A stretch of 50,616 nt of DNA from a virus, in the IMG/VR virus record IMGVR_UViG_3300005613_004910, positions 1-50,616 of that record; one strand, given 5' to 3'. Positions 9,102 through 21,557 of the stretch are shown here, piece after piece. Both the position numbers and the translations under genes were made by a program. Each line of letters starts with the position of its first letter. Position 1 is the first letter of the stretch. Under the pieces are notes generated by a model. It saw nothing but the letters and a program-made list of their open reading frames with translations. It was not told the origin of the DNA and ran no database searches.

Positions 9102-9548
9102 ATGATTGATACTGCCCGATTCAAAAAGATGGTATATGCCTTTGAACAAAAAATAGTAGTGGAAGGTTTTGTTCGAGAAAGGTTTTCTCAAATTCGGACT
9201 ATTCCAAGAAAAGAAGGTAAACTTTCCAACCAGTCCTTTGGGAAAATGATGGGAGAATTTATAGATACACAGCGTCTTATTACATTAGATTATTATGGGT
9301 TTTTTAAGCGATCCAAAGGGCTGCTAAATCTCATTAAAAAAGAAGATGCAAAGCAAGTAAAGTCTTTTTTTATAAGTTTTGCATCAATCAAAATGGAAGA
9401 TATTATTTTTTTAACCAATGATGTATCTGTTATTATGAATTTCCCAAGTTTGAAAAATGAGATACTTATTCATAGAGGATTTATAAAAAGGAATATGGGT
9501 GAGTTAGAAAAAGGAGGCCGGTTGGGGCAAACCTCCCCCCAAGAATAG
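9102..9548 (+). CDS. Hypothetical protein whose 3' end lies in a repeat
   Basis: A 148-residue, mostly helical protein with no recognised motif (KKMVYAFEQKIVVEGFVRERF, later SFFISFASIKMEDIIFLTNDV). The last residues, GRLGQTSPQE, are encoded inside the 52-nt intergenic repeat that starts at 9519. The natural C-terminus may therefore have been replaced when that element arrived. No strong ribosome-binding site is visible before the ATG (AGAGAC only). It is the last gene before about 500 nt of gene-free DNA. Confidence 0.5.
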   Translation: MIDTARFKKMVYAFEQKIVVEGFVRERFSQIRTIPRKEGKLSNQSFGKMMGEFIDTQRLITLDYYGFFKRSKGLLNLIKKEDAKQVKSFFISFASIKMEDIIFLTNDVSVIMNFPSLKNEILIHRGFIKRNMGELEKGGRLGQTSPQE

Positions 9549-9570
9549 ATCGCCAATCGTAGGCCTTCTG
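9519..9570 (+). repeat. 52-nt intergenic element, copy 1
   Basis: This block is identical over 52 nt to 23811-23862. TTGGGG and CCCCAA can form a stem around a pyrimidine-containing loop, and the 3' part has ATCGCCAATCGTAGGCC. The flanks differ between copies. It overlaps the last codons of the gene at 9102. Function unknown; its structure and intergenic position suggest an RNA element. Confidence 0.6.
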
Positions 9571-10016
9571 AGACGGTTTAAAAACAATTTTACCATGCCT
9601 ATAACACTCCCCAAATATAATCTTTATTCTATATATATACATTCGACTATTCCTGAGAGTTCTACAATATAAAACCCGATTCCCGATACAAATATAACAA
9701 GCCAAAATACTAAATAATAAGCCAAAACAACGCATAATTACCGCAAATTATAAGGCCTATGCTCTAATTACCGCATACAAACGCACGAGAAAGCGGCGCA
9801 CCGGTTTTTTATATATAATTATGCGTCACAGACATATAATTACCGCATACAAACGCATATAAGGGGCACGGGGCAATATCACCGATTTTCGGCTATTTTC
9901 GGCTGTTTTCTAAAATAAACCGGTGTTTTTGGGCTTTTTTCATGCTGTAAAAACAGTAAGTTATAGGGCAAATAGAAAAAAGCGGTAAAACAAGGCGAAA
10001 TAGCCGGTTTTCGGTG
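9571..10016. other. Gene-free AT-rich region with repeats; possible origin or control region
   Basis: No credible gene on either strand. The stretch holds the direct and inverted repeats described separately (9731-9857), several copies of ATTTTCGGCT-like sequence (about 9893-9915), and short poly-T runs. It immediately precedes the promoter of the hammerhead transcription unit. Replication origin, promoter control region and recombination site are all possible; nothing in it decides between them. Confidence 0.45.
9731..9857. repeat. Iteron-like direct repeats with an inverted copy
   Basis: A 21-nt unit (TAATTACCGCATACAAACGC plus A) occurs at 9765-9785 and 9837-9857, exactly 72 nt apart. A partial copy (TAATTACCGCA) is at 9735-9745. 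CGCATAATTA at 9731-9740 has its reverse complement TAATTATGCG at 9816-9825. This spacing resembles iterons or paired operator sites. Confidence 0.55.
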
Positions 10017-10044
10017 TTGCTATAACCCCCAGACAAGGTATAAT
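10017..10044 (+). promoter_or_regulatory. Sigma70-type promoter for the hammerhead transcription unit
   Basis: TTGCTA at 10017-10022 and a perfect TATAAT at 10039-10044 are separated by 16 nt. Transcription would start near 10051, at the beginning of the structured non-coding region. No gene start lies within 900 nt downstream, so the first product would be RNA. Confidence 0.55.
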
Positions 10045-10050
10045 AACTAT

Positions 10051-10964
10051 AGTTCTTTTATATTGTAAGCGTTTTTTGGGGTTGATCGAAGCAACCTCGT
10101 CCGCCGGCGGGACCAGCAATCAGGTCGGCGGAAACCAAAAAAATCTTTGTGTTCTTTTAAACCCACCGGCAAAAGTTTCTGATTTCAAACGTACTAGGCT
10201 GAGTGATCCCTCCCTGACACGAACCAGGGAACAAAGGTTACGGCGATTGCTTAAAGGCAAAAAATGAGACCAAAGGCCGACACGAAGATCAGATAACCCA
10301 AGCCTGGATAAAAAAGAAATTGTTTATCATAGCTGTGGTTCGCTCGATTCTTCTTTTAAAAAATAGTTGAATCGGCTGCCTTTATACGAATATTTCTTTT
10401 ATGGATATTATCCATAATCCAGACATAGCCTCAGGAAAAACAGAATACAATAATTCTAATTGGATAATGGCAATAGCTTTATTGCGATGACTGCCCAGCC
10501 TTTTGGCTTAAAACCTTTTAAGTTTTTGTTTTCTTGACCCTCCGCTAAGGAGTTTCCTCTAATTATAGAAAGATTCAGTTAGCCACCAAGTACCTAAATC
10601 CTACAACCATTTTCTCCATGAAAATAACCGGATTGAATTTTACAGTCCTTAGATAGTTTTCCGACTTTAGATCCTTAACTTCATCGTTAATTTGCTGAAG
10701 TTACACGATGGGCGGGTCGGTTTACTTCCTACTGACAAATGTAAATGTCAAGTAAATCTGCCATGGAATTGTAGAAAGACTGCGATGAATATTTTAAGTA
10801 ATCGTACAGGAAGGTGCATCTCCCCACTAAAGATTTTATTTCTCCGCTGCTATTGGGTGAAGTTCTATCAACATATAAGAGAGCCTGACCAACCGAAAAT
10901 AAAGTCCAGGGGATTCCTCCTCCTTAAAAAGTAAAGCCGAAACCGGAGATTTATTTCTCCGGTC
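10051..10964 (+). ncRNA. Large structured non-coding RNA candidate (about 0.9 kb)
   Basis: No credible coding sequence is present in about 880 nt of an otherwise gene-dense genome. Many local helices are visible: GGTTG/CAACC (10080-10096), TCCGCC/GGCGGA with an inner GACC/GGTC (10100-10132), TCCCTG/CAGGGA (10211-10230), TTATGGA/TCCATAA (10399-10417), GCAATA/TATTGC (10470-10485), AGCC/GGCT (10497-10508), CTCC/GGAG (10540-10552), nested AATCC/GGATT around ATTTTC/GAAAAT (10597-10634) and CATCGT/ACGATG (10682-10710). A promoter sits just upstream, and the first hammerhead would cut at 10964/10965, defining the 3' end. Large ornate RNAs such as GOLLD and ROOL occur in phages, but I cannot assign this one to a class. 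Confidence 0.6.
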
Positions 10965-10996
10965 TGCCAGGGGTTGGTTCCTGGTACTGATGAGGC
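10936..10996 (+). ncRNA. Type II hammerhead ribozyme 1
   Basis: The conserved core is complete: GAAA (10939-10942) and CTGATGA (10987-10993). Stem II is GCC/GGC, open at the ends of the element. Stem III is CCGGAG/CTCCGG, different in sequence from the other copies but fully paired. Stem I is TGCCAGG/CCTGGTA. The predicted cut follows GTC at 10964. It releases the large non-coding RNA from the first mRNA. Confidence 0.88.
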
Positions 10997-11033
10997 AACC
11001 TAAAAATATTAATTTACTACAAGGAGGACTAAA

Positions 11034-11237
11034 ATGAGTCTACTAATCAAATTGTCAAACATTCCAGATGACGTAATACCTGTTTTAAGATCAAATGATC
11101 ATGGTGATATTTATTACAGGGGGATACCTGTAAAATATATTACAATAGCCCCAAAAAGCAGACTCAACGCAAAATACAGGATAACCACAGATAAAGGGCA
11201 ATATAGAATTGATGATGGTCATATTGAAATTTGTTGA
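11034..11237 (+). CDS. Small hypothetical protein
   Basis: A 67-residue protein, the first gene after hammerhead 1, with the cluster's standard leader (CTACAAGGAGGACTAAA) before the ATG. The sequence is beta-rich and basic (DIYYRGIPVKYITIAPKSR, KYRITTDKGQYRIDDG). No motif or family is recognised. Ribozyme cuts on both sides would leave it on its own short mRNA of about 340 nt. Confidence 0.6.
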   Translation: MSLLIKLSNIPDDVIPVLRSNDHGDIYYRGIPVKYITIAPKSRLNAKYRITTDKGQYRIDDGHIEIC

Positions 11238-11274
11238 TTATTTTACCATAAAACACAGGAAGAAGTCTAAACAA

Positions 11275-11333
11275 GCCGAAACTCCCTGTAACAGGGGAGT
11301 CTGCCAGGGATTGGTTCCTGGTACTGATGAGGC
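11275..11333 (+). ncRNA. Type II hammerhead ribozyme 2
   Basis: GAAA at 11278-11281 and CTGATGA at 11324-11330. Stem II GCC/GGC, stem III CTCCC/GGGAG with an extra wobble pair, stem I TGCCAGG/CCTGGTA. The predicted cut is after GTC at 11301. It stands between a stop codon (11237) and the AAGGAGG of the next gene. Confidence 0.92.
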
Positions 11334-11371
11334 AACCTAAAAATATTAATTTACTACAAGGAGGATTTATT

Positions 11372-11677
11372 ATGGAACTAAGAGTTTTTACTAAGACCGA
11401 TTGGGAAGGTTTTGCGGGATGTGAATCCAGAAAACCAATGATTGGAAAAGTATCCATGAAAGATACAGAGGAAGCGGAAGGTATTGTAGAAGGTATTGTA
11501 GTGGTAGACGGACTCAGAGTAGAAATGTATTTCTTAGACGAAAAGTGTATAGATGAAGTTATATATTCAAAAGATTTTATAGATTTTGTAAATGAAGATG
11601 TTATAACAATAGTAAAATCATGGCCAAAAATGATTACCAAGGACTTCGTTGTCAGACGAGGATTTGAAGAATTTTGA
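11372..11677 (+). CDS. Hypothetical acidic protein
   Basis: A 101-residue protein starting MELRVFTKTDWEGFAGCE. The ATG at 11372 follows the conserved AAGGAGG leader; an in-frame ATG at 11327 lies inside the hammerhead core (CTGATGA) and would be destroyed as a start by ribozyme folding, so it is rejected. The middle is acidic and repetitive (EEAEGIVEGIVVVDG), the end is basic. No family recognised. Confidence 0.6.
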   Translation: MELRVFTKTDWEGFAGCESRKPMIGKVSMKDTEEAEGIVEGIVVVDGLRVEMYFLDEKCIDEVIYSKDFIDFVNEDVITIVKSWPKMITKDFVVRRGFEEF

Positions 11678-11691
11678 AGAATATAAATAAA

Positions 11692-11750
11692 GCTGAAACT
11701 CCCTGTAACAGGGGAGTCTGCCCATGATGGTTCATGGGTACTGATGAGGC
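11692..11750 (+). ncRNA. Type II hammerhead ribozyme 3
   Basis: GAAA at 11695-11698 and CTGATGA at 11741-11747. Stem II is GCT/GGC with a U-G pair next to the core. Stem III is CTCCC/GGGAG. Stem I is the second allele, TGCCCATG/CATGGGTA, eight consecutive pairs. The predicted cut is after GTC at 11718. Confidence 0.92.
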
Positions 11751-11784
11751 AACCAATATTAATTTACTACAAGGAGGATTTATT

Positions 11785-12516
11785 ATGACGAAGACAAGTA
11801 AGAGCAAGAAAACTAAGGCACTTCCTAAAGAAGCAATTTCGGCCAAAGAAACAGCTAAGAAGGCTAAGGCCCAAATAGCAGCAAAAGACAAAAAGGAAGT
11901 TACCAAGAAACAGGCTAAGAAAACTAAAGCCAAGGTAGCAAAGAATGCAAAAGTTACCAAGAAAACTGTTAAAACAATTACGACTATTGATCCAAAAGTA
12001 GAAAAAGCGTTGAGAAGAAAACTTTTGAAAAATAGTAGAATGCTCAACGAACTCGAATTGCTTGATATTCCTATAGATCGCAACAGCAATACTGAAGAAC
12101 TTAAAAAGCAGTTCGTAGCGGCCATGCGGGAGATAAATTCGTCGTTTTCCTCAAGCCGTAAACTTGCAGAACTCAGCAAGAGCACCACTAATCTTTTCGA
12201 ATCACTGACCGGTAAGAAAGTAACCAAGGTAGCAAATGTTAAAGACAAAAAAGAAAAAAAAGGAGGGAAGACTATGCCTAACAAGCTGATAAAGAATGTA
12301 GAATCCAATAAGGAACTGAAGTCTAAGGTAACAGAGAGCATGTTGAATCATGAAATATCCAGACTCTGTTCTATGGACGATGATCAGATGAAGGCCAGGA
12401 TCAAAAAAATAAAAAGTCCTGTCAAACTGGAAGCACTCCGGATCGCCTCAATGTGGTGTGGAGTAAGAAAGTTTGCACGGCTGGCTCGCATCAAAAGAAA
12501 CGCTATGATGGTTTAA
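11785..12516 (+). CDS. Lys-rich histone-like protein with an internal start
   Basis: A 243-residue basic protein. The first ~75 residues are Lys/Ala-rich and low in complexity (KETAKKAKAQ, KKQAKKTKAKVAKNAK), similar to histone H1-type or nucleoid tails and likely to bind nucleic acid. A predicted helical segment follows (RKLLKNSRMLNELELLDI). The last 80 residues, beginning MPNKLIKNVESNK, form a separate domain that has its own ribosome-binding site (see the next entry). The ATG at 11785 follows the cluster's AAGGAGG leader; an in-frame start inside hammerhead 3 is rejected. Function beyond nucleic-acid binding is unknown. Confidence 0.65.
   Translation: MTKTSKSKKTKALPKEAISAKETAKKAKAQIAAKDKKEVTKKQAKKTKAKVAKNAKVTKKTVKTITTIDPKVEKALRRKLLKNSRMLNELELLDIPIDRNSNTEELKKQFVAAMREINSSFSSSRKLAELSKSTTNLFESLTGKKVTKVANVKDKKEKKGGKTMPNKLIKNVESNKELKSKVTESMLNHEISRLCSMDDDQMKARIKKIKSPVKLEALRIASMWCGVRKFARLARIKRNAMMV
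12274..12516 (+). CDS. Internal in-frame product of the Lys-rich gene (80 aa)
   Basis: A strong AGGAGG (12261-12266) lies 7 nt before an ATG in the same frame as the surrounding gene. Translation from it would yield the C-terminal domain alone, without the Lys-rich tail. The site could be chance, since Lys/Gly-rich codons make purine runs, but its spacing is ideal. Confidence 0.4.
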   Translation: MPNKLIKNVESNKELKSKVTESMLNHEISRLCSMDDDQMKARIKKIKSPVKLEALRIASMWCGVRKFARLARIKRNAMMV

Positions 12517-12520
12517 TAAA

Positions 12521-12579
12521 GCCGAAACTCCCTGTAACAGGGGAGTCTGCCAGGGATTGGTTCCTGGTACTGATGAGGT
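12521..12579 (+). ncRNA. Type II hammerhead ribozyme 4
   Basis: GAAA at 12524-12527 and CTGATGA at 12570-12576. Stem II is GCC/GGT with a G-U pair, stem III CTCCC/GGGAG, stem I TGCCAGG/CCTGGTA. The predicted cut is after GTC at 12547. The element starts 5 nt after the preceding stop codon. Confidence 0.9.
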
Positions 12580-12616
12580 AACCTAACAATATTAATTTAC
12601 TACAAAGGAGGATGTT

Positions 12617-12883
12617 ATGAAGAAAGAAACAAGAAGAGAAAGAGACAAAGAAATGATTAATGATCCCAGAAAATGGGGAACCTTTCCTTTTCTTCCAGTA
12701 ATGAGAAAGATGAAGGGTAGCGGTGTTGAAGTTGGAATTATTTTGTCGGCAGGAGATCACCTTACAGTTTTTGATTGTAATTTGTTTATGCTTCCGGAAA
12801 AACTCTCCGACTTTGGGGATTTCGATAGATGGGACTACCGATCAATTGAGGATTTATTAGATGACGGATGGACAGTTGACTGA
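12617..12883 (+). CDS. Small hypothetical protein
   Basis: An 88-residue protein with AAAGGAGG before the ATG. It begins with a very basic helix (MKKETRRERDKEMIND) and ends acidic (DFDRWDYRSIEDLLDDGWTVD). No recognised domain. It is the first of four small genes carried between hammerheads 4 and 5. Confidence 0.6.
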   Translation: MKKETRRERDKEMINDPRKWGTFPFLPVMRKMKGSGVEVGIILSAGDHLTVFDCNLFMLPEKLSDFGDFDRWDYRSIEDLLDDGWTVD

Positions 12884-12911
12884 GATAAATTTTCTATTGT
12901 AGGGGAGAAGC

Positions 12912-13100
12912 ATGGAAAAAAGAAGAAAGTTGCTACTACTACAGGCAAAAGAAAAACATCAACCAAACGCAATCCATTTTTGTGGGGTTGCCACAAGTTG
13001 GAGTCAATGTTTCACAATTGAAAATGGAAAACTATGCCTATGGTATAATTTGGAAAATAATACGAAGATGATGTTTGAAGGGGAGAAGCATGGAAAATAA
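12912..13100 (+). CDS. Small hypothetical protein
   Basis: A 62-residue protein with GGGGAG 7 nt before its ATG. It contains CGVATSWSQCF and ends in EGEKHGK. The end overlaps the start of the next gene by 11 nt. The start region (GGGGAGAAGCATGGAAAA) is nearly identical to that of the next gene at 13080-13097, suggesting a small duplication of a translation start. No function is recognised. Confidence 0.5.
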   Translation: MEKRRKLLLLQAKEKHQPNAIHFCGVATSWSQCFTIENGKLCLWYNLENNTKMMFEGEKHGK

Positions 13101-13317
13101 AAAGAAATATCCGTTTGATCACACAACGGCAAACGGGCAAAAACGTCTTATGGCATATTCGAGAGGGTTAGATCCTGAAACATACATAGCCAAGCCTATT
13201 GATGTAACAAAACCAGGAGACTATGGCTGTGATCCGCTTGGAGATAATAAATTTAAAATGGTTCCCAGCGGAGATGTTGTAGATCTCAATGAAATGAGAA
13301 AGAGGTTAAATAAATGA
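13090..13317 (+). CDS. Small hypothetical protein
   Basis: A 75-residue protein starting MENKKKYPFDHTTANGQKR. The ATG at 13090 is preferred over an in-frame one at 13075 because GGGGAG sits 6 nt ahead of it. The pattern GLDPETYIAKPIDVTKPGDYGCDPLG is proline- and glycine-rich and probably lacks a large core. Family unknown. Confidence 0.55.
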   Translation: MENKKKYPFDHTTANGQKRLMAYSRGLDPETYIAKPIDVTKPGDYGCDPLGDNKFKMVPSGDVVDLNEMRKRLNK

Positions 13318-13377
13318 AAAGCCTGATAGAGAAATCAAAAACAGTTAACCATATATGAAGTAAAAGGAAGATTTATT

Positions 13378-13623
13378 ATGGTAAATAAAAGAATCATAGA
13401 AGCAAAGTTAAGAGAAAATTTGATGCTGCTGTCTGATGGTGATGAAGAGAAGGCCAAGGAATTATGGGAGGTATCAAAAGGTGACGATCTAGACGCGCTA
13501 ATGATCAGAACCAAGATTTTTAAGGATCTTGGTTATTGCTTCAAATGCGGTAGAAAGTTGGATTTCGTTGTTGAGACCAATGGCATTCCGCATTGCCTTG
13601 GACCTTGTGAATTATCCCGGTGA
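13378..13623 (+). CDS. Small putative zinc-ribbon protein
   Basis: An 81-residue protein with AAGGAAG upstream of the ATG. The N-terminal half is helical (RENLMLLSDGDEEKAKELWEV). The C-terminal half has CFKCGRKLD and later CLGPC, a Cys4 arrangement suited to one zinc ion. The DNA around the stop codon contains a short duplication (GTGAATTATCCCG twice, 13609-13632). It lies directly before hammerhead 5. Confidence 0.55.
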   Translation: MVNKRIIEAKLRENLMLLSDGDEEKAKELWEVSKGDDLDALMIRTKIFKDLGYCFKCGRKLDFVVETNGIPHCLGPCELSR

Positions 13624-13675
13624 ATTATCCCGAACTTCCTTGGATCTTGTGAATTCAACAAGGAATATAAATAAA

Positions 13676-13734
13676 GTCGAAACCTCCCGTAAAAAGGAGG
13701 TCTGCCAGAGATTGGTTCCTGGTACTGATGAGGC
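13676..13734 (+). ncRNA. Type II hammerhead ribozyme 5
   Basis: GAAA at 13679-13682 and CTGATGA at 13725-13731. Stem II is GTC/GGC, stem III is the CCTCC/GGAGG allele, and stem I is TGCCAG/CTGGTA with one weakened pair. The predicted cut is after GTC at 13702. Confidence 0.9.
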
Positions 13735-13770
13735 AACCTAATTTTAATTTACTACAAAGGAGGATTTATT

Positions 13771-14478
13771 ATGACAAAGAGATACCCAATTAAGTGTTAC
13801 GTGCTAAAGGCAGTCCAAGAAATAAGTTCTGTGTTTATGGATTGTGGAAGAGAAACATTTACTAATGCTGATATCTTTGAAGAACTAAGAAAGGGTGCCC
13901 AATTAAATATCAAACAAAGAGATGTTGCCACCATAATGGCTAGATTTTTCATAAATGGTGGGTTCGTTGAAGAATGCGGAACAGAAATTATTTCTGGTAA
14001 AAGAGTAAAATGCCGAAAATTAACTCAAAAGGGAATCAATACAAACTGGAAAAGGGTCCCATCAGAAAAACAGATTTCAAGAGAAAACAGTTCAACTTTT
14101 GCTGATAATGAGACCGAGAAAGGTCCTGTACAGCCTGTAGATCCTGTACAGGCCATAGATAAAGAATACGGGGCAGCTAAAAGAGATTTAGATGAGTCAG
14201 AAGATGAGAAACCAGAACAAATTGATTTGGCTGAAGCATTGATCAACTACGTTGACGATCTAAAGAAACGAATCTCCCTGTGGGAGATGAAATGTAGAGA
14301 TCTTCAGTACAAACTTGAATCTACCGAAAATGAATGGAGAAGTACAGTAAGAAGTAAAAATAAAACCATAGAGAATCTAAATCAAAAGATTATAGCCTTA
14401 CGAAACAGAATCAACAAAGGTTATAATCTTAAAGAAACAAGGCTATTGAAAGACGTAGCCAAATTCAGGGGAAAATAA
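13771..14478 (+). CDS. Winged-helix-like protein with C-terminal coiled coil
   Basis: A 235-residue protein with AAAGGAGG before the ATG. The first ~95 residues resemble a winged helix-turn-helix module (NADIFEELRKGAQLNIKQRDVATIMARFFINGGFVEEC, then a basic wing KRVKCRKLTQKG). A polar linker with PVQPVDPVQ repeats follows. From residue ~150 a long coiled coil (YVDDLKKRISLWEMKCRDLQ ... NLNQKIIALRNRI) is predicted. This layout fits a DNA-binding protein that oligomerises. Its stop codon (TAA) is fused to the first base of hammerhead 6. Confidence 0.55.
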   Translation: MTKRYPIKCYVLKAVQEISSVFMDCGRETFTNADIFEELRKGAQLNIKQRDVATIMARFFINGGFVEECGTEIISGKRVKCRKLTQKGINTNWKRVPSEKQISRENSSTFADNETEKGPVQPVDPVQAIDKEYGAAKRDLDESEDEKPEQIDLAEALINYVDDLKKRISLWEMKCRDLQYKLESTENEWRSTVRSKNKTIENLNQKIIALRNRINKGYNLKETRLLKDVAKFRGK

Positions 14479-14479
14479 A

Positions 14480-14538
14480 GCTGAAACTCCCTGTAACAGG
14501 GGAGTCTGCCCATGATGGTTCATGGGTACTGATGAGGC
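14480..14538 (+). ncRNA. Type II hammerhead ribozyme 6
   Basis: GAAA at 14483-14486 and CTGATGA at 14529-14535. Stem II GCT/GGC, stem III CTCCC/GGGAG, stem I TGCCCATG/CATGGGTA. The predicted cut is after GTC at 14506. The element starts one base after the preceding stop codon. Confidence 0.92.
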
Positions 14539-14573
14539 AACCAATATTAATTTACTACAAAGGAGGATTTATT

Positions 14574-14774
14574 ATGGCAAAGAAGGTAGAAATCACTTTT
14601 GGAAACGATGGGTCAGTAAGGGTTGAAGCATTTGGTTTTAAGGGAGCCAGTTGTGAAGAAGCAACTGCTTTTCTTGATACCCTATTTGAGATTAAGAAAA
14701 GGAATCACAAAGATTCTTACTACGAGCAGTCTGAAAAAATTGCTGATGGTCTACCAAGCGGATGGTGTGGATAA
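14574..14774 (+). CDS. DUF2997 family protein
   Basis: A 66-residue protein matching the DUF2997 pattern: a strand with KVEITFGNDGSVRVEAFGFKG followed by SCEEATAFLDTLFEI. The family is small and its biochemistry is unknown; in cyanobacteria it is encoded next to DUF1257 (Ycf35) and a Ycf46-type ATPase, exactly the order seen here. The ATG at 14574 follows the AAAGGAGG leader; an earlier in-frame start inside hammerhead 6 is rejected. Confidence 0.8.
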   Translation: MAKKVEITFGNDGSVRVEAFGFKGASCEEATAFLDTLFEIKKRNHKDSYYEQSEKIADGLPSGWCG

Positions 14775-14805
14775 TAACAAAGCCAAAAATAAAAAGGAGA
14801 ACGAA

Positions 14806-15168
14806 ATGAGTCATGTATCAAAATACAGTACGATTATTAGGGATACCAGCCTGTTCTGCAACAAAGCAGAGAAACTTGGCCATGAAGTAATCCAGGGTGA
14901 TCAAATAGTGAAATTGTTTTCAACACTAATTGCCTGTGTTGCATCGGTAAAGGTGAAGGGCTGGTGTTACCCTTTGGCAATTACTGAAGCAGGGGAAATT
15001 CTTTATGATCATTTTGGTTCACAGCAAGGATCCATGGAGAATTTTCACGGGCTTATAAAAGACTATAATGAAGAAATGGTTATTCAAAACATTCCAATTG
15101 ATTTAATTCAGACCTTCTATACTGAAGATATTAAAGAGGGTACAAAGCTCGTGCTTGAATATAAATAA
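14806..15168 (+). CDS. DUF1257 / Ycf35-like protein
   Basis: A 120-residue protein starting MSHVSKYSTIIRD, the typical DUF1257/Ycf35 opening, followed by ACNKAEKLGHEV-like helix text and the family's C-terminal segment (YNEEMVIQNI). AAAAAGGAG lies 8 nt before the ATG. The long upstream extension of the frame overlaps DUF2997 and is not used. Role unknown; conserved linkage with DUF2997 and Ycf46 implies that the three act together. No hammerhead separates it from DUF2997, so both would stay on one processed mRNA. Confidence 0.8.
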   Translation: MSHVSKYSTIIRDTSLFCNKAEKLGHEVIQGDQIVKLFSTLIACVASVKVKGWCYPLAITEAGEILYDHFGSQQGSMENFHGLIKDYNEEMVIQNIPIDLIQTFYTEDIKEGTKLVLEYK

Positions 15169-15169
15169 A

Positions 15170-15228
15170 GTCGAAACCTCCCGTAAAAAGGAGGTCTGCC
15201 AGGGATTGGTTCCTGGTACTGATGAGGC
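15170..15228 (+). ncRNA. Type II hammerhead ribozyme 7
   Basis: GAAA at 15173-15176 and CTGATGA at 15219-15225. Stem II GTC/GGC, stem III CCTCC/GGAGG, stem I TGCCAGG/CCTGGTA. The predicted cut is after GTC at 15196. The stop codon of DUF1257 ends 2 nt upstream. Confidence 0.92.
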
Positions 15229-15265
15229 AACCTAAAAATATTAATTTACTACAAAGGAGGATGTT

Positions 15266-16675
15266 ATGAAGAAAGAAATTATCAATTATCTCAGAGCTGG
15301 TTTCCCTGCAATCTGGCTTCAAACACCAGAACCGAATAGGGTAAGGAAAAATGTCTATACATCTTTACAAGAGTTTGTTCGGAAAGATGGTAAGGGTTAT
15401 AATATCATCGAATGGACTAATACATTGGATCCAAACCCTTTGAAATCAATTCAACAATTGATTAAATCAGATCCATGTACAATATTATTTGCGTACAATT
15501 GGCATTGGTATGCAGATAAGCCACAGCTTATTCAATTACTGCAAGATAACATGCCAATTTGGGCAAGTCAGGCAAAGGCATTTATTGCTGTATCACCGCT
15601 GAACAAAATACCAATCGAATTGGAAAAGGATTTTGTTCTTTTAGATATGCCTTTGCCTGATGGAATTGAGATTGATGAGGCTATTAAAAAGATAGCAATA
15701 AATCAAAATCAAATCCCCAAAGGCAAAGACCTTGCAAGATTGATTTCTTCATGTAGAGGATTAACAAAGGCTGAACTGGACTCGGTTCTGGCATTGTCGC
15801 TTATTAGTAATGGCAATAGTTTTGACAAGAAAATTATTAATAAATATAAAACCATGGCAATCCAGAAAACTGGTTTCTTAGATGTTTTGCCACCGACAAT
15901 GAACTTCTCGGATATAATAGGTTATAATAATATCAAAAGTTTCATTCTGGAAACGATAGATAACCCGAAGGCTAAAGGTATCATGACCATCGGACCTCCA
16001 GGATGTGGGAAGACCTCGCTAATGAAGGCAGTAATTGGAGAGACTGGTAAGTTTGGCCTATCGGTGAATATGGGAAATCTGTTTAGCAAATATCAAGGTG
16101 AGACTGATCAAAATATAAATAAAGTGATCAAGATAATCACTGCTATTGGGGATTGTTTCGTGCTCATTGATGAATTTGAAAAGCAGTTTGCTGGTGCTTC
16201 GAGTGATGGAAGCTTGGATAGTGGCACTACCAGAAGAGCAACAGGGCGTTGGCTTGAGTTTTTGCAAGATAGGCCAAAAGGTGTTTATATCTGTGGAACA
16301 GCAAATTCATTTGCTGGCATTCCCGGAGAATATCTTAGACCTGGACGGTGGGATTCTTCTCCATTCTTTATTGACCTTCCTGCTAAGAAAACCAAATTGC
16401 AAATCCTAAAATACTATCTCAACAAAGCCAACATAAAGGTTACCAGAAAGGAATATCCAGAGATGGATCAGTATACTGGTGCTGAGATAGAAGCATTAGT
16501 ACATATTGCTGATATGCGAAACATGTCGTTGAAACAGGCAAGCTATTGTATTCTACCTCAAGCAAAAACAAAGGCAGAAGATATAACTGCTCTTAGAGCT
16601 TGGGCAAAAGGTAGAACAATCCCAGCCGAGGCAATTCCGCCTGTTGGGAGCATTAAAAGAAACATCGATCTATAA
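15266..16675 (+). CDS. Ycf46-like AAA+ ATPase
   Basis: A 469-residue AAA+ protein. The N-terminal ~200 residues resemble the Ycf46 leader domain (LRAGFPAIWLQTPEPNRV, later DLARLISSCRGLTKAELDSVL). The AAA+ module follows: Walker A GPPGCGKTSLMKAV near residue 243, Walker B CFVLIDEFEKQF near residue 296, sensor 1 GVYICGTANSF and an arginine-finger region (YLRPGRWD), then the helical lid. Ycf46 proteins are conserved in cyanobacteria and plastids with an unclear, possibly photosynthesis- or CO2-related role. In a phage it probably remodels a complex containing DUF1257/DUF2997. It has its own processed mRNA between hammerheads 7 and 8. Confidence 0.85.
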   Translation: MKKEIINYLRAGFPAIWLQTPEPNRVRKNVYTSLQEFVRKDGKGYNIIEWTNTLDPNPLKSIQQLIKSDPCTILFAYNWHWYADKPQLIQLLQDNMPIWASQAKAFIAVSPLNKIPIELEKDFVLLDMPLPDGIEIDEAIKKIAINQNQIPKGKDLARLISSCRGLTKAELDSVLALSLISNGNSFDKKIINKYKTMAIQKTGFLDVLPPTMNFSDIIGYNNIKSFILETIDNPKAKGIMTIGPPGCGKTSLMKAVIGETGKFGLSVNMGNLFSKYQGETDQNINKVIKIITAIGDCFVLIDEFEKQFAGASSDGSLDSGTTRRATGRWLEFLQDRPKGVYICGTANSFAGIPGEYLRPGRWDSSPFFIDLPAKKTKLQILKYYLNKANIKVTRKEYPEMDQYTGAEIEALVHIADMRNMSLKQASYCILPQAKTKAEDITALRAWAKGRTIPAEAIPPVGSIKRNIDL

Positions 16676-16682
16676 GTCAAAA

Positions 16683-16742
16683 TCCGAAACTCCCTGTAAC
16701 AAGGGAGTCTGCGTAAGATTGGAACTTGCGTACTGATGAGGA
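16683..16742 (+). ncRNA. Type II hammerhead ribozyme 8 (most divergent)
   Basis: GAAA at 16686-16689 and CTGATGA at 16733-16739. All three helices differ from the common forms yet stay paired: stem II TCC/GGA, stem III CTCCCT/AGGGAG, stem I TGCGTAAG/CTTGCGTA. The predicted cut is after GTC at 16709. This copy gives the strongest covariation evidence. Confidence 0.92.
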
Positions 16743-16779
16743 CACCTAATCAAAAAATAAAATAAAAAGGAGGAGTACT

Positions 16780-17964
16780 ATGGCAGAAGAAAAACTCACG
16801 TTTGGGAAGTCTAAAATGGGGACAGTACATATTCTTCAAAATGGTAAGGCTAAATGTGACAAAAAAATTGTAACTATAACAAGCGATCCTAAGCTAAAGA
16901 TTAAGGATGTCACATGTAGTAAATGTAGAAAGTATAAGGTTTTTCAACAGCATTTGAAAAATCCAGAAGTGTCTACCGCTGAACATAAACCGGAACCTGT
17001 GTCTGAACCGGAACCTGTGCCTGTGCCTGTGCCAGACCCTGCGCCTGAAGTTAAAGAAAAACCTGAGCCAAAAACTGAGGGAAAGAGAAAAGACATCGGA
17101 ATAAAAACTAAAATAGATAAGTCTAAAGAAATCTCTGAACAGATTGAACATAAACCGGAACCTGTGTCTGAACCGGAACCTGTGCCTGTGCCTGTGCCAG
17201 ACCCTGCGCCTGAAGTTAAAGAAAAACCTGAGCCAAAAACTGAGGAAGTTCCTCTTGGCCCACAATTTATAATAAGGTCAATCAATAGGGGCATGGGTGA
17301 GAATATCTGCATCGTTCATAAGCCAACCGGAAAGTTCTTCTTTGAGGGATTGCATAAGATGGTTGTCTACGATGTAATGAAAGCTTTAAATGGAATAAAA
17401 GATCAATGGTTATCGGAAACAGATCCGATGCCGAAGAACTTTGCCAAAAGATGTAGAAAGGCAATCAGACTTGCATACGAAATCTGTGACATCGACATAC
17501 CATCTGGCTTGAGAAAGTCTAAAGATGGTTCTCGAAGCAAAATCAAAAAACAACGTCAGAAGGAAAAGAAATCTAAGAGAAAGATTAAGCGAAGACCAAA
17601 GGCGAAGATTGAGACAGCACCCAGAAAGATTAAGAGAAGAACAAAGGTAAAACCTGCTGCTTTCCAGGCCAGAAAGATTAAGCGAAGGCCAAAGGCGAAG
17701 AATGAAGTGGTTGAAAAAGAAGTTAATGAGGAAATCATCTCTGAAAAGAAAATTGCAAAGATGGAGAAGATTGTTAGAAAAAAAATAGAGGAAGGATCTA
17801 TCTTTATAGATATGATCCAAAGCATCATCACTATGTTTGATGTGGACGAAACGACTGCAGATAAAATGATAAGACAAACTGTTACTGAAATGACCAGAGG
17901 ACAGGGAATACCCGTTTTTATAGCCCTTGCAAAGACAGTAGAAGACGATTTTTATTCATTATAA
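16780..17964 (+). CDS. Modular protein with Pro/Glu repeats and KIKRR array
   Basis: A 394-residue protein. Residues ~28-50 contain CDKK...CSKCRKYK, a possible small zinc knuckle. A Pro/Glu/Val-rich spacer (PEPVPVPVPDPAPEVK) is present twice because of an exact 100-nt DNA duplication (16981-17080 and 17146-17245). A globular segment follows (IRSINRGMGENICIVHKPTGKFFFEG). Then come three copies of KIKRR followed by P or T and K (SKRKIKRRPK, PRKIKRRTK, ARKIKRRPK). The C-terminal ~70 residues are a helical domain. AAAGGAGG precedes the ATG. Not a recognised family; a scaffold or nucleic-acid-associated role is the best guess. Confidence 0.6.
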   Translation: MAEEKLTFGKSKMGTVHILQNGKAKCDKKIVTITSDPKLKIKDVTCSKCRKYKVFQQHLKNPEVSTAEHKPEPVSEPEPVPVPVPDPAPEVKEKPEPKTEGKRKDIGIKTKIDKSKEISEQIEHKPEPVSEPEPVPVPVPDPAPEVKEKPEPKTEEVPLGPQFIIRSINRGMGENICIVHKPTGKFFFEGLHKMVVYDVMKALNGIKDQWLSETDPMPKNFAKRCRKAIRLAYEICDIDIPSGLRKSKDGSRSKIKKQRQKEKKSKRKIKRRPKAKIETAPRKIKRRTKVKPAAFQARKIKRRPKAKNEVVEKEVNEEIISEKKIAKMEKIVRKKIEEGSIFIDMIQSIITMFDVDETTADKMIRQTVTEMTRGQGIPVFIALAKTVEDDFYSL

Positions 17965-17968
17965 TAAA

Positions 17969-18027
17969 GCCGAAACCTCCCGTAAAAAGGAGGTCTGCCC
18001 ATGATGGTTCATGGGTACTGATGAGGC
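17969..18027 (+). ncRNA. Type II hammerhead ribozyme 9
   Basis: GAAA at 17972-17975 and CTGATGA at 18018-18024. Stem II GCC/GGC, stem III CCTCC/GGAGG, stem I TGCCCATG/CATGGGTA. The predicted cut is after GTC at 17995. It is the last ribozyme; the next transcript end is the terminator at 18942. Confidence 0.92.
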
Positions 18028-18066
18028 AACCTAACAATATTAATTTACTACAAAGGAGGATTTATT

Positions 18067-18936
18067 ATGAAACCAGAACAACTACAGGAAGGGGCTTTCT
18101 GTCAACTAAAAATTGGGCGGTGGGATGCGAGTGTACGTCTTCCAAAAGGAAAACTTGGAGACAAGGTACCAAAGAATATTATAAGAGCAACCCAAGACCT
18201 TATCGATGATAGAACACTCCTTAACGATATTGCTACAATAAAAAGGGCAGCAAAGGGATACCTGGTGAGAAACTCACTTCCGTTTAGTATGGATGGAGTT
18301 TTTTGGGTTAACAAAGAGCAAATTCCTGCGTTGGATGAAAAGTTCAAAGAATTTGAAGTTGAATATAAAAATCGTTTAGACAAACTTGTTAGAAATTATA
18401 TCAAGATGAAAAATGATTTTAGAAAAAAGTATCCAACTTATTACAACGGATCAAAGTATCCGACTGCTTCTAATCTTAGAAGAAAGTTCTATTTTAAGTG
18501 GCAGTTTTTTCAGTTTACTATCCCAGACAAAAAGATGAATATTCTGCCTCCGTCTATCTATAAAAAAGAAAAAGAGAAGATGTTGAATTTAGTGAAAGAT
18601 ATGGAAGAGATGACAATAACGATGGTAGGCAATCTGTTAATCAAAAGGGTTCAGAAGCTTTCAAAGCAATGTGTGACCGGCAAGATTAATGGTAATACAG
18701 TCAACTCCATAGAAAAATTTATGGGTCGTTGGGATACCCTATGGGGGGATTATGTTGATGAAAAGAGAATGAAAACTGCTATGAAAAAGATGAAGGAGGA
18801 AGTCAAGAATATGAGTACAGAGCGACTCAATAATAATGAAGACTTCAGAAACAAAATGGCAGGTAGTTTGGAATCAGTAATAAACCAAATCAAGAATATA
18901 CCAGGATTCGAACTTAAGAGGAAGTTGGACATCTAA
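18067..18936 (+). CDS. DUF3150-like phage protein
   Basis: A 289-residue protein resembling DUF3150: an N-terminal beta segment (FCQLKIGRWDASVRLPKGKLG), a helix pair (LNDIATIKRAAKGYLVRNSLPFSMDGVFWVNKEQIPALDEKFKEFE) and a long helical C-terminal half (NRLDKLVRNYIKMKNDF ... MKKMKEEVKNM). Proteins of this type are found in phages and near Ycf46-like or CbbQ-like AAA+ genes; their function is unknown. AAAGGAGG precedes the ATG. It is the last gene before the terminator, so it probably belongs to the same functional set as the ATPase upstream. Confidence 0.6.
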   Translation: MKPEQLQEGAFCQLKIGRWDASVRLPKGKLGDKVPKNIIRATQDLIDDRTLLNDIATIKRAAKGYLVRNSLPFSMDGVFWVNKEQIPALDEKFKEFEVEYKNRLDKLVRNYIKMKNDFRKKYPTYYNGSKYPTASNLRRKFYFKWQFFQFTIPDKKMNILPPSIYKKEKEKMLNLVKDMEEMTITMVGNLLIKRVQKLSKQCVTGKINGNTVNSIEKFMGRWDTLWGDYVDEKRMKTAMKKMKEEVKNMSTERLNNNEDFRNKMAGSLESVINQIKNIPGFELKRKLDI

Positions 18937-19784: not shown

Positions 19785-20169
19785 AAGAATATCAGAGCAA
19801 AACTATATCAATGCATATAATATAATGTATGGGCAATGGACAAGTATTGCCCCATGTGATTATATAGAAGGAGAAAAGGATGCTAACGAGCCGAGCTATA
19901 TATCGACGGAAGTTATTATTTCTGATATGGTTTCAGCAGAGGAACAAGTAATCAAAAAACAAGAGTGGCATAATCTATCAGATGAAGCAAAAGAAATAAT
20001 TACTACAATAGTGTTTGGGCCATCAGAAATTCTCGAAATAATAAAAACCCCTCAACGCAAACTACTCACCAAAAAAAGTATAATGAAATATTTTAGACAA
20101 ATTTGGAAAAGTAAATTCATTAGCGGCTATACAATAAAGGAAATAGTCAAGTGGGTAAACCAACTATAA
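19738..20169 (+). CDS. Hypothetical protein with basic N-terminus
   Basis: A 143-residue protein. The first 17 residues are almost all Lys/Arg/Gly (MPKRKKKKRKKGKRGKR). The rest is helical: EEQVIKKQEWHNLSDEAKEII, SEILEIIKTPQRKLLTKKSIMKYFRQIW and a final YTIKEIVKWVNQL. The C-terminal half resembles small phage DNA-associated helical proteins, but I cannot name it. It overlaps the genes on both sides, consistent with coupled translation into the helicase. Confidence 0.5.
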   Translation: MPKRKKKKRKKGKRGKRISEQNYINAYNIMYGQWTSIAPCDYIEGEKDANEPSYISTEVIISDMVSAEEQVIKKQEWHNLSDEAKEIITTIVFGPSEILEIIKTPQRKLLTKKSIMKYFRQIWKSKFISGYTIKEIVKWVNQL

Positions 20170-21557
20170 CGATAATAGATAGTATACATTGTAAGGCGAA
20201 CAAAGAAGCACGGAAGGCTATTCTCCCTGCACTCAAGTATGAGAGCACTGTAACAAAACGTGGTAGATATGGCCGAAGGGTAATAACTAAAAAGGTATCT
20301 TACATGGTAACCGGCAGGGCAGGGACTGCCGGTACCTTCCTGACAGGCTTACTACCAAGAATAAAACTTTTCTGTAAACAAAAAAATATAGACATCTTAA
20401 TCACTGGTGAGGAAAACATCGAAGTTCTACCACCTACAAAAAAGCCAAAGCTAAATGGTATCGTTTTTAGACCAGATCAAAAAAAAGCACTAAGAGCAGT
20501 AAGGAAGTATAATACTGGGAGAGTAGTGTTCCCAACAGGAAGTGGGAAAACAATTATTGCATGCGGCATAATTGCTATGTTTGATGGGTATAGAGTTTTG
20601 TTTCTATGTCATACTAAAGACTTAATAGAACAAACACTTGAGCAATTCAAAAAATATTTTGCAAATAGAGATATATTTATAATTGGTGCTGGCTATAAAA
20701 CAAAATGGGGTACAGTTAAAAAGTCTGAGAGCCCAATACTATTGGCAACAATACAAAGTTTTTCAAAATTAGAACCAAAAGACTACACTGCTTTTTTTGA
20801 TATAACAATAGTCGATGAAGTTCATCATTTATCTTCAAGGAAGAGCCAGTATGGAAAGGTAATGGAAAGAAATTTATCTCCACGCAAATATGGCCTTACA
20901 GCTACTATACCAACCAAGCAAAAAGAGATATTAATTAATGAAGGGTTCTTCGGAGAGACAATAGCTGAGCTAAGTATAAAGAAAGGAGTTAAGAAGGGTA
21001 TAATAGCAAAGCCAAAAATAAATCTAATCCCGGTTCCACCACAGGCATCAATAATAAAAATATCAGGTGGCAAATATAAAAATTACTACATCTATGGGAT
21101 AGTAAAAAATAAAAAGAGAAACATGCTCATTTGTAGAGAAGTACAGAGAAGTTTAAAAAGAGGAGAAACTACATTAATTATAATAGACAGAACAGAGCAT
21201 GGATTCGAGATACAATCCTTACTAAAGCAAAATAAAATACATGCCCCATTTGTTTATGGAGCAACAGATAAGGTAGAAAGAGAAAAAGCAAAAAACAGTC
21301 TAATTAAAAGAAAAACAAAAGTAGTAATTTGTTCAAAGGTATGGAAGGAAGGGATCAATATTCCATCACTAAACCATATAATAAATGCTGCGGGTATGAA
21401 GGAAGAAAAGGGTGTTTTACAAACACTTGGAAGAGGATTGAGAACTACAAAAAATAAAAAAACAGTAAGGCTCACAGACTTTTTAGATTGCTATAAATAC
21501 CTGGCAGAGCATACAGTACAACGGATGCAAGTATATGTTAAACAAGGCTGGATATAG
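20151..21557 (+). CDS. SF2 DEAD/DEAH-type helicase (UvsW/RecG-like repair helicase)
   Basis: A 468-residue superfamily 2 helicase. The N-terminal ~100 residues are an accessory domain. Motif I is FPTGSGKT near residue 130, motif Ia VLFLCHTKDLIEQ, motif II DEVHH at residue 222, motif III GLTATI, and motif VI QTLGRGLRT near residue 430. Layout and size resemble T4 UvsW, which unwinds branched DNA and RNA-DNA hybrids and helps origin-to-recombination switching. It starts at GTG 20151, inside the end of the preceding gene, with AAAGGAAA upstream. It is followed by the second copy of the 72-nt RNA element and the primase. Confidence 0.85.
   Translation: MGKPTITIIDSIHCKANKEARKAILPALKYESTVTKRGRYGRRVITKKVSYMVTGRAGTAGTFLTGLLPRIKLFCKQKNIDILITGEENIEVLPPTKKPKLNGIVFRPDQKKALRAVRKYNTGRVVFPTGSGKTIIACGIIAMFDGYRVLFLCHTKDLIEQTLEQFKKYFANRDIFIIGAGYKTKWGTVKKSESPILLATIQSFSKLEPKDYTAFFDITIVDEVHHLSSRKSQYGKVMERNLSPRKYGLTATIPTKQKEILINEGFFGETIAELSIKKGVKKGIIAKPKINLIPVPPQASIIKISGGKYKNYYIYGIVKNKKRNMLICREVQRSLKRGETTLIIIDRTEHGFEIQSLLKQNKIHAPFVYGATDKVEREKAKNSLIKRKTKVVICSKVWKEGINIPSLNHIINAAGMKEEKGVLQTLGRGLRTTKNKKTVRLTDFLDCYKYLAEHTVQRMQVYVKQGWI

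Follow-up and report, generated by a model that had tools for sequence, protein, structure and literature searches.

What occupies the 1.5 kb without credible genes between the genes at 9102–9548 and 11034–11237 of a 50.6-kb IMG/VR virus record (the window, that is, the whole stretch of DNA analysed)? A preliminary description, made from the letters alone, had proposed for positions 10051–10964 a giant structured RNA with its own promoter and a ribozyme-made 3′ end. Comparison with related phages makes it very likely that this tract encodes a structured RNA. The reading that we favour, and consider reasonably probable, is that of a large structured non-coding RNA (ncRNA) that heads the early operon as its first product and whose 3′ anti-Shine-Dalgarno (anti-SD) element acts on translation. 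The features on which the argument turns are the following.

10051–10964, + strand: proposed large structured ncRNA, from promoter to hammerhead cleavage site (non-coding; elements shared with relatives; folding)
10017–10044, + strand: sigma70-like promoter TTGCTA-N16-TATAAT, expected start near 10051 (10/12 matches)
10052–10065, + strand: boxA-like element GTTCTTTTATATTG at the RNA 5′ end (second-ranked word in an unbiased shared-word search)
10150–10160, + strand: second boxA-like copy TGTTCTTTTAA (from the sequence)
10597–10634, + strand: nested symmetry AATCC/GGATT around ATTTTC/GAAAAT (from the sequence; inner helix in the MFE fold)
10781–10806, + strand: GAA/AGUA (bulged-G/loop-E-like) hairpin TGCGAT-GAA-TATTTTA-AGTA-ATCGTA (exclusive; stem covaries; covariance model)
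10914–10926, + strand: anti-SD element TTCCTCCTCCTTA near the RNA 3′ end (top shared word)

The claim that some 900 nt here lack credible coding holds. Two open reading frames of more than 60 aa are present in 10051–10964, at 10076–10267 and 10692–10934 (TTG start), with lengths of 63 and 80 aa, and a PHROG search matched neither (best E 0.19); the strong GC skew typical of the coding sequences of this phage vanishes over 9500–11100. A DNA similarity search against phages and plasmids returned nothing useful for 10051–10964, and in an Rfam scan of 9550–11100 with hits up to E ≤ 10 allowed, only the hammerhead reached a meaningful score.

Searches with the AAA ATPase encoded at 15266–16675 retrieved about 15 related uncultivated phages, and those with the helicase at 20151–21557 retrieved more. 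In 12 records, the window and 11 relatives, a non-coding tract of 0.5–1.3 kb lies ahead of the early genes and upstream of the ATPase, with its elements in the strand-specific order boxA, module, anti-SD; in L009, L021 and L040 the end of the record cuts off the tract position, and L020 is an uncertain candidate. Further candidates from the helicase search were rejected as members, their anti-SD-like words occurring only in coding or antisense-SD contexts. Exact-pattern scans of IMG/VR with the hammerhead-SD block and with two conserved words from L033/L035 yielded no further members, and a scan of genome contigs found distant AAA ATPases only, with no host link. As far as seen, the family is confined to one group of uncultivated phages. 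Two records carry features of their own. In L020, positions 660–1600 comprise a boxA-like TTGATCTTTTAAAAATAGC, then 0.9 kb without clear genes, then TATCCTTTTCCTTTTAAAG, the stretch being full of repeated AAGGGGCTT words, so that this may be a divergent member with an altered anti-SD. In the ncRNA of L022, a relative free of hammerheads, the hairpin-flanking motif GAAGAGTAAC..GTGAAAAAA occurs three times, at 2452, 2682 and 3186.

The 3′ end of these RNAs is marked by the anti-SD. An unguided search for shared words placed ATCCTCCTCCT first (total score 109 vs 83 for the null), near the 3′ end, and an anti-SD AUCCUCCUCCUUU stands in that position in 10 of the 12 tracts, followed by a strong hairpin. 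With patterns that, like those used below for the module and for strict boxA, were picked after the sequences had been inspected, CCTCCTCCT is found in 8/12 RNAs against 0.007 expected in shuffles, and TCCTCC in 10/12; the element is absent in L031 and degenerate in L035. In six family genomes ATCCTCCTCCT occurs once per genome, always within the ncRNA. Predicted folds leave the anti-SD only partly unpaired (0.17–0.86). Its predicted pairing with nine SD sites of hammerhead genes amounts to −12.9 to −16.0 kcal/mol, and that of a generic 16S tail, which may not be the host's, with the same sites to −11.2 to −12.2 kcal/mol; the modelled gap is small and does not decide for SD pairing. That the RNA acts through SD/anti-SD contact is a tentative proposal to which we assign somewhat less than an even chance. 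Since bS21 and RtcB genes are not encoded in these phages, such partners would be host proteins.

At the other end of the tract, the TATAAT promoter noted in the preliminary description is present at 10017–10044 and is plausibly functional; promoter hits of this kind are not commoner in the sequence than in shuffles (4 vs 5.0), and similar −10 boxes can be seen by eye ahead of several relatives' tracts. A boxA-like TGTTCTTTTA lies near the 5′ end of most of the 12 tracts and ranked second in the unguided search against shuffles. Neither this element nor the anti-SD figured in the preliminary description. A strict boxA pattern matches 5/12 RNAs against 0.1 in shuffles, with looser matches in more, and among the 12 RNAs compared a clear boxA was not found in L022, L023, L034 and L035. 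BoxA is the key element of rRNA antitermination (PMC10250234), and it relieves the Rho-dependent repression that a long non-coding leader otherwise causes (PMC4807359). A long phage RNA that is not translated has that need, which a boxA-like word where the RNA begins would fit.

Between the two ends, the family shares a hairpin module consisting of an outer stem, GAA, a short inner part, AGUA and the closing strand of the stem. Textbooks give GAA/AGUA as the combination typical of the bulged-G (loop E) motif. The pattern (stem of at least 6, GAA, N2–8, AGUA, stem) has nine copies in the 12 RNAs against 0.013 in shuffles, and across 721 kb from 18 phage sequences, searched on both strands, 7/7 copies lie in ncRNAs and on the sense strand. 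In an alignment of nine copies, made with N-padded loops since MAFFT alone misaligned such short modules, 6/6 stem pairs change on both sides; the copies were chosen by complementarity, and their 100% pairing is not independent of that choice. With a covariance model of the module every hit at E<2 falls in an ncRNA, and the copy in G002 was found though left out of the building.

The nested symmetry is located at AATCC 10597–10601/GGATT 10630–10634 and ATTTTC 10609–10614/GAAAAT 10620–10625, and of this nested pair the MFE fold of 10051–10964 contains the inner helix ATTTTC/GAAAAT only. The nested hairpins described at the outset are thus present in the sequence, whereas the stability of the fold is only modestly above chance: z is −2.7 for the window RNA (other runs −2.1 to −2.9), +0.5 to −2.3 for coding controls from the window, and between +1.5 (G005, positive) and −5.8 across the family. 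With z values so modest, richness in hairpins is by itself a weak argument, and it is the comparative evidence that lifts the case above chance. Outside the modules and the motifs at the two ends, the 12 RNAs cannot be aligned with one another, so that a claim of common descent for the whole RNA is restricted to L033 and L035, the only alignable pair (mean column identity 73%). Their consensus energy is −131, against −87 ± 6.5 in column-shuffled alignments, and two-sided pair changes number 63, against 42 ± 7 in column shuffles; the covariation spans the full length, and conserved words separate the changing stems, a pattern seen in structured RNAs. The covariation among homologues to which the preliminary description had looked is therefore found in this pair and in the module stem; the window RNA has no close, alignable homologue, and covariation within it rests on the short module.

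A hammerhead stands directly behind the window RNA, and it is the first of an array.

10935–11004, + strand: type II hammerhead 1, predicted cleavage after C10964 (48.8 bits vs Rfam threshold 37)
11274–11341, + strand: hammerhead 2, upstream of the gene at 11372–11677 (covariance match)
11691–11758, + strand: hammerhead 3, upstream of the gene at 11785–12516 (covariance match)
12520–12587, + strand: hammerhead 4, upstream of the gene at 12617–12883 (covariance match)
13675–13742, + strand: hammerhead 5, upstream of the gene at 13771–14478 (covariance match)
14479–14546, + strand: hammerhead 6, upstream of the gene at 14574–14774 (covariance match)
15169–15236, + strand: hammerhead 7, upstream of the AAA ATPase gene at 15266–16675 (covariance match)
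16682–16749, + strand: hammerhead 8, upstream of the gene at 16780–17964 (39.9 bits)
17968–18035, + strand: hammerhead 9, upstream of the gene at 18067–18936 (covariance match)

The element at 10935–11004 agrees with RF02276 in its catalytic core and in the order of its stems; its self-cleavage is a prediction, and the predicted site, after C10964, is exactly the end point first proposed for the tract. Even so, a ribozyme-made 3′ end would apply to no more than four members, this phage included, and is not general in the family. Among eight members from hammerhead phages, four (the window, G004, G005 and G006) have a hammerhead directly after the RNA, and in G002, G003, L031 and L034 at least one gene without a hammerhead intervenes before the first ribozyme. 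Four further members (L022, L023, L033, L035) come from records without any hammerhead, which makes the ribozyme an optional add-on and not the general route to the 3′ end. In most members that end is marked by the anti-SD and a strong hairpin. Stem III of the hammerhead supplies this hairpin in the window and G005, where it follows the anti-SD immediately; G004 and G006 have an independent hairpin, with a T run in G006, between the anti-SD and the hammerhead.

Nine records, the window among them, carry arrays of 3–14 hammerheads, each hammerhead ahead of a gene's Shine-Dalgarno; there are two hammerheads in L031, one doubtful copy in L043 and none in the other relatives. Cleavage would leave a 5′ leader of 64–71 nt containing stem I, the Shine-Dalgarno and the start codon, as predicted for the seven of nine window hammerheads that a simple core pattern caught. 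The array at 10935–18035 would in this way yield single-gene mRNAs with a hairpin-led 5′-OH leader. Known type II and tandem bacterial hammerheads share the motif and the intergenic placement; those occur two to three in tandem and were active when tested (PMC3088659), whereas the phage records carry 3–14, each ahead of a Shine-Dalgarno. The literature searched contained no report of such phage arrays, which at this scale are apparently undescribed. One hammerhead-array relative, L040 (IMGVR_UViG_2740891992_000001), ends inside its array; its identifier resembles those of genome or single-cell records, not those of metagenomes, and the record could reveal the host. The protein predicted from 16780–17964, behind the eighth hammerhead, combines a long Pro/Glu-rich internal repeat (present twice) with a basic Lys/Arg-rich part and has no family match.

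Must such a tract give a discrete RNA at all? It could instead be a long untranslated 5′ leader acting only in cis, in which boxA-type antitermination and structure control read-through into the early operon. Its place between promoter and first early gene in every member, the boxA-like motif near its 5′ end and the strong hairpins near its 3′ end before the first gene would all suit that role. A length of 0.5–1.3 kb, however, far exceeds what antitermination needs, and the covariation along the whole of L033/L035, like the anti-SD and the GAA/AGUA modules found only in these ncRNAs, fits a structured product better; in the window phage, moreover, the ribozyme would cut the RNA off the mRNA. 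We consider a cis-only leader unlikely, and release of the RNA as a discrete species, as far as sequence can indicate it, fairly likely.

If the tract does encode a discrete RNA, the obvious comparison is with GOLLD and ROOL, large phage ncRNAs that are distinct in sequence, both form nanocages and are often found near tRNA islands (PMC12286853). Like GOLLD, the RNAs described here are large (many GOLLD RNAs exceed 800 nt), phage-borne and of complex fold, with a function that is unknown and a more conserved 3′ part; ROOL is comparable in size and occurs in phages and prophages. The tract was not recognised at first as either, and Rfam scans and dedicated models, OLE included, bear this out. 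The GOLLD covariance model (RF02032) reached at best 4.7 bits, against 150, over 13 records, and the ROOL model (RF03087) matched neither these RNAs nor the controls, which included no positive one and leave that result weak by itself; full Rfam scans gave no match either. GOLLD often lies near tRNA islands, whereas the window has no tRNA, and the GOLLD literature consulted mentions no anti-SD tail, boxA-like signal or link to hammerheads. The RNA might still be a cage or scaffold of the GOLLD/ROOL kind without being either, its anti-SD secondary: size and phage habit match, sequence-distinct RNAs can both form nanocages, and ribosomes are reported bound to GOLLD in pull-downs (PMC12286853). 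Set against the missing model matches, the lack of a tRNA and an anti-SD that is the most conserved element, this strikes us as quite improbable.

Other RNAs resemble the family in part. OLE RNA is likewise large and structured with a CCUCCU anti-SD mimic, a feature shared by the phage family, and that mimic was shown experimentally to be required for bS21 binding (PMC12054373); OLE is, however, a host RNA of ~600 nt in Gram-positive bacteria with its anti-SD inside the paired helix P6 (PMC12054373), whereas the phage anti-SD lies near the 3′ end, and Rfam scans of two members, with E ≤ 10 allowed, gave no hit to the OLE model (RF01071). A 5′ boxA-like element together with an anti-SD near the 3′ end recalls 16S rRNA and the rrn leader, yet the phage tracts, of 0.5–1.3 kb, have no SSU rRNA match (E ≤ 10, two members scanned). 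Phage ICP1 produces an abundant ORF-less transcript of ~0.8 kb from gp139–gp140 (PMC7567579), a phage RNA of similar size, which we rejected as a relative for want of sequence similarity, anti-SD and GAA/AGUA module. With no GOLLD or ROOL model match, no tRNA in the window and a dissimilar ICP1 RNA, the phage tract RNAs would constitute a family of their own, with distinctive ends, within the broad class to which GOLLD and ROOL belong.

Just 5′ of the promoter, 9734–9857 and 9799–10016 between them contain iteron-like repeats, ATAATTACCGCA three times and TAATTACCGCATACAAACGCA twice, together with imperfect inverted repeats of 18–30 nt, possibly a replication origin or operator region. These direct and long inverted repeats, with replication genes among the neighbours, could suggest that the tract itself is a DNA element, a replication origin or a packaging region, in which repeats give the look of RNA structure. 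We hold this very improbable, for the repeats lie upstream of 10051–10964 and not inside it, the shared motifs are strand-specific and ordered, and G-U pairs, like the two-sided changes, point to RNA. A decayed coding region, which would have undone the original proposal, is hardly credible: its two reading frames are open, but PHROG protein matches, DNA matches in phages and plasmids and the coding skew are absent, and the relatives' tracts are non-coding too.

We return to the large structured ncRNA with its 3′ anti-SD. Transcription would start at the promoter, and the boxA-like signal would load NusB/NusE and spare the polymerase from Rho, as in rRNA operons. The RNA would fold into many hairpins, among them the comparatively supported GAA/AGUA modules, and its 3′ end would be formed by hammerhead cleavage after C10964 or, in relatives, by the hairpin after the anti-SD. 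In the least certain step, the 3′ AUCCUCCUCCUUU tail would mimic the 16S rRNA 3′ end and act on translation, either by pairing with Shine-Dalgarno sequences or by capturing a 30S factor such as bS21, a mode tested for OLE RNA. Further along the same transcript, the downstream hammerheads would release mRNAs of one gene each, with short 5′ leaders. On sequence grounds, this is probably a new family of large phage ncRNA directed at translation by mimicry of the 16S 3′ end, with rRNA-style antitermination. A more ambitious version, in which boxA, loop-E-like modules and anti-SD make up a ribosome mimic that captures 30S components or SD sites and redirects host translation, with the hammerhead array coupled to it in some phages, is possible, though on the doubtful side.

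The functions of the giant phage ncRNAs GOLLD and ROOL are unknown, and the present family offers a concrete handle in its conserved anti-SD tail, an element of the kind through which OLE RNA binds bS21, and in its putative rRNA-type antitermination signal. Translation control by giant phage RNAs thereby becomes directly testable through one short motif. The arrays of up to 14 hammerheads placed before genes would represent an unusual mode of operon processing. If the proposed reading is true, these RNAs may give phages a new means of handling the translation machinery of the host.
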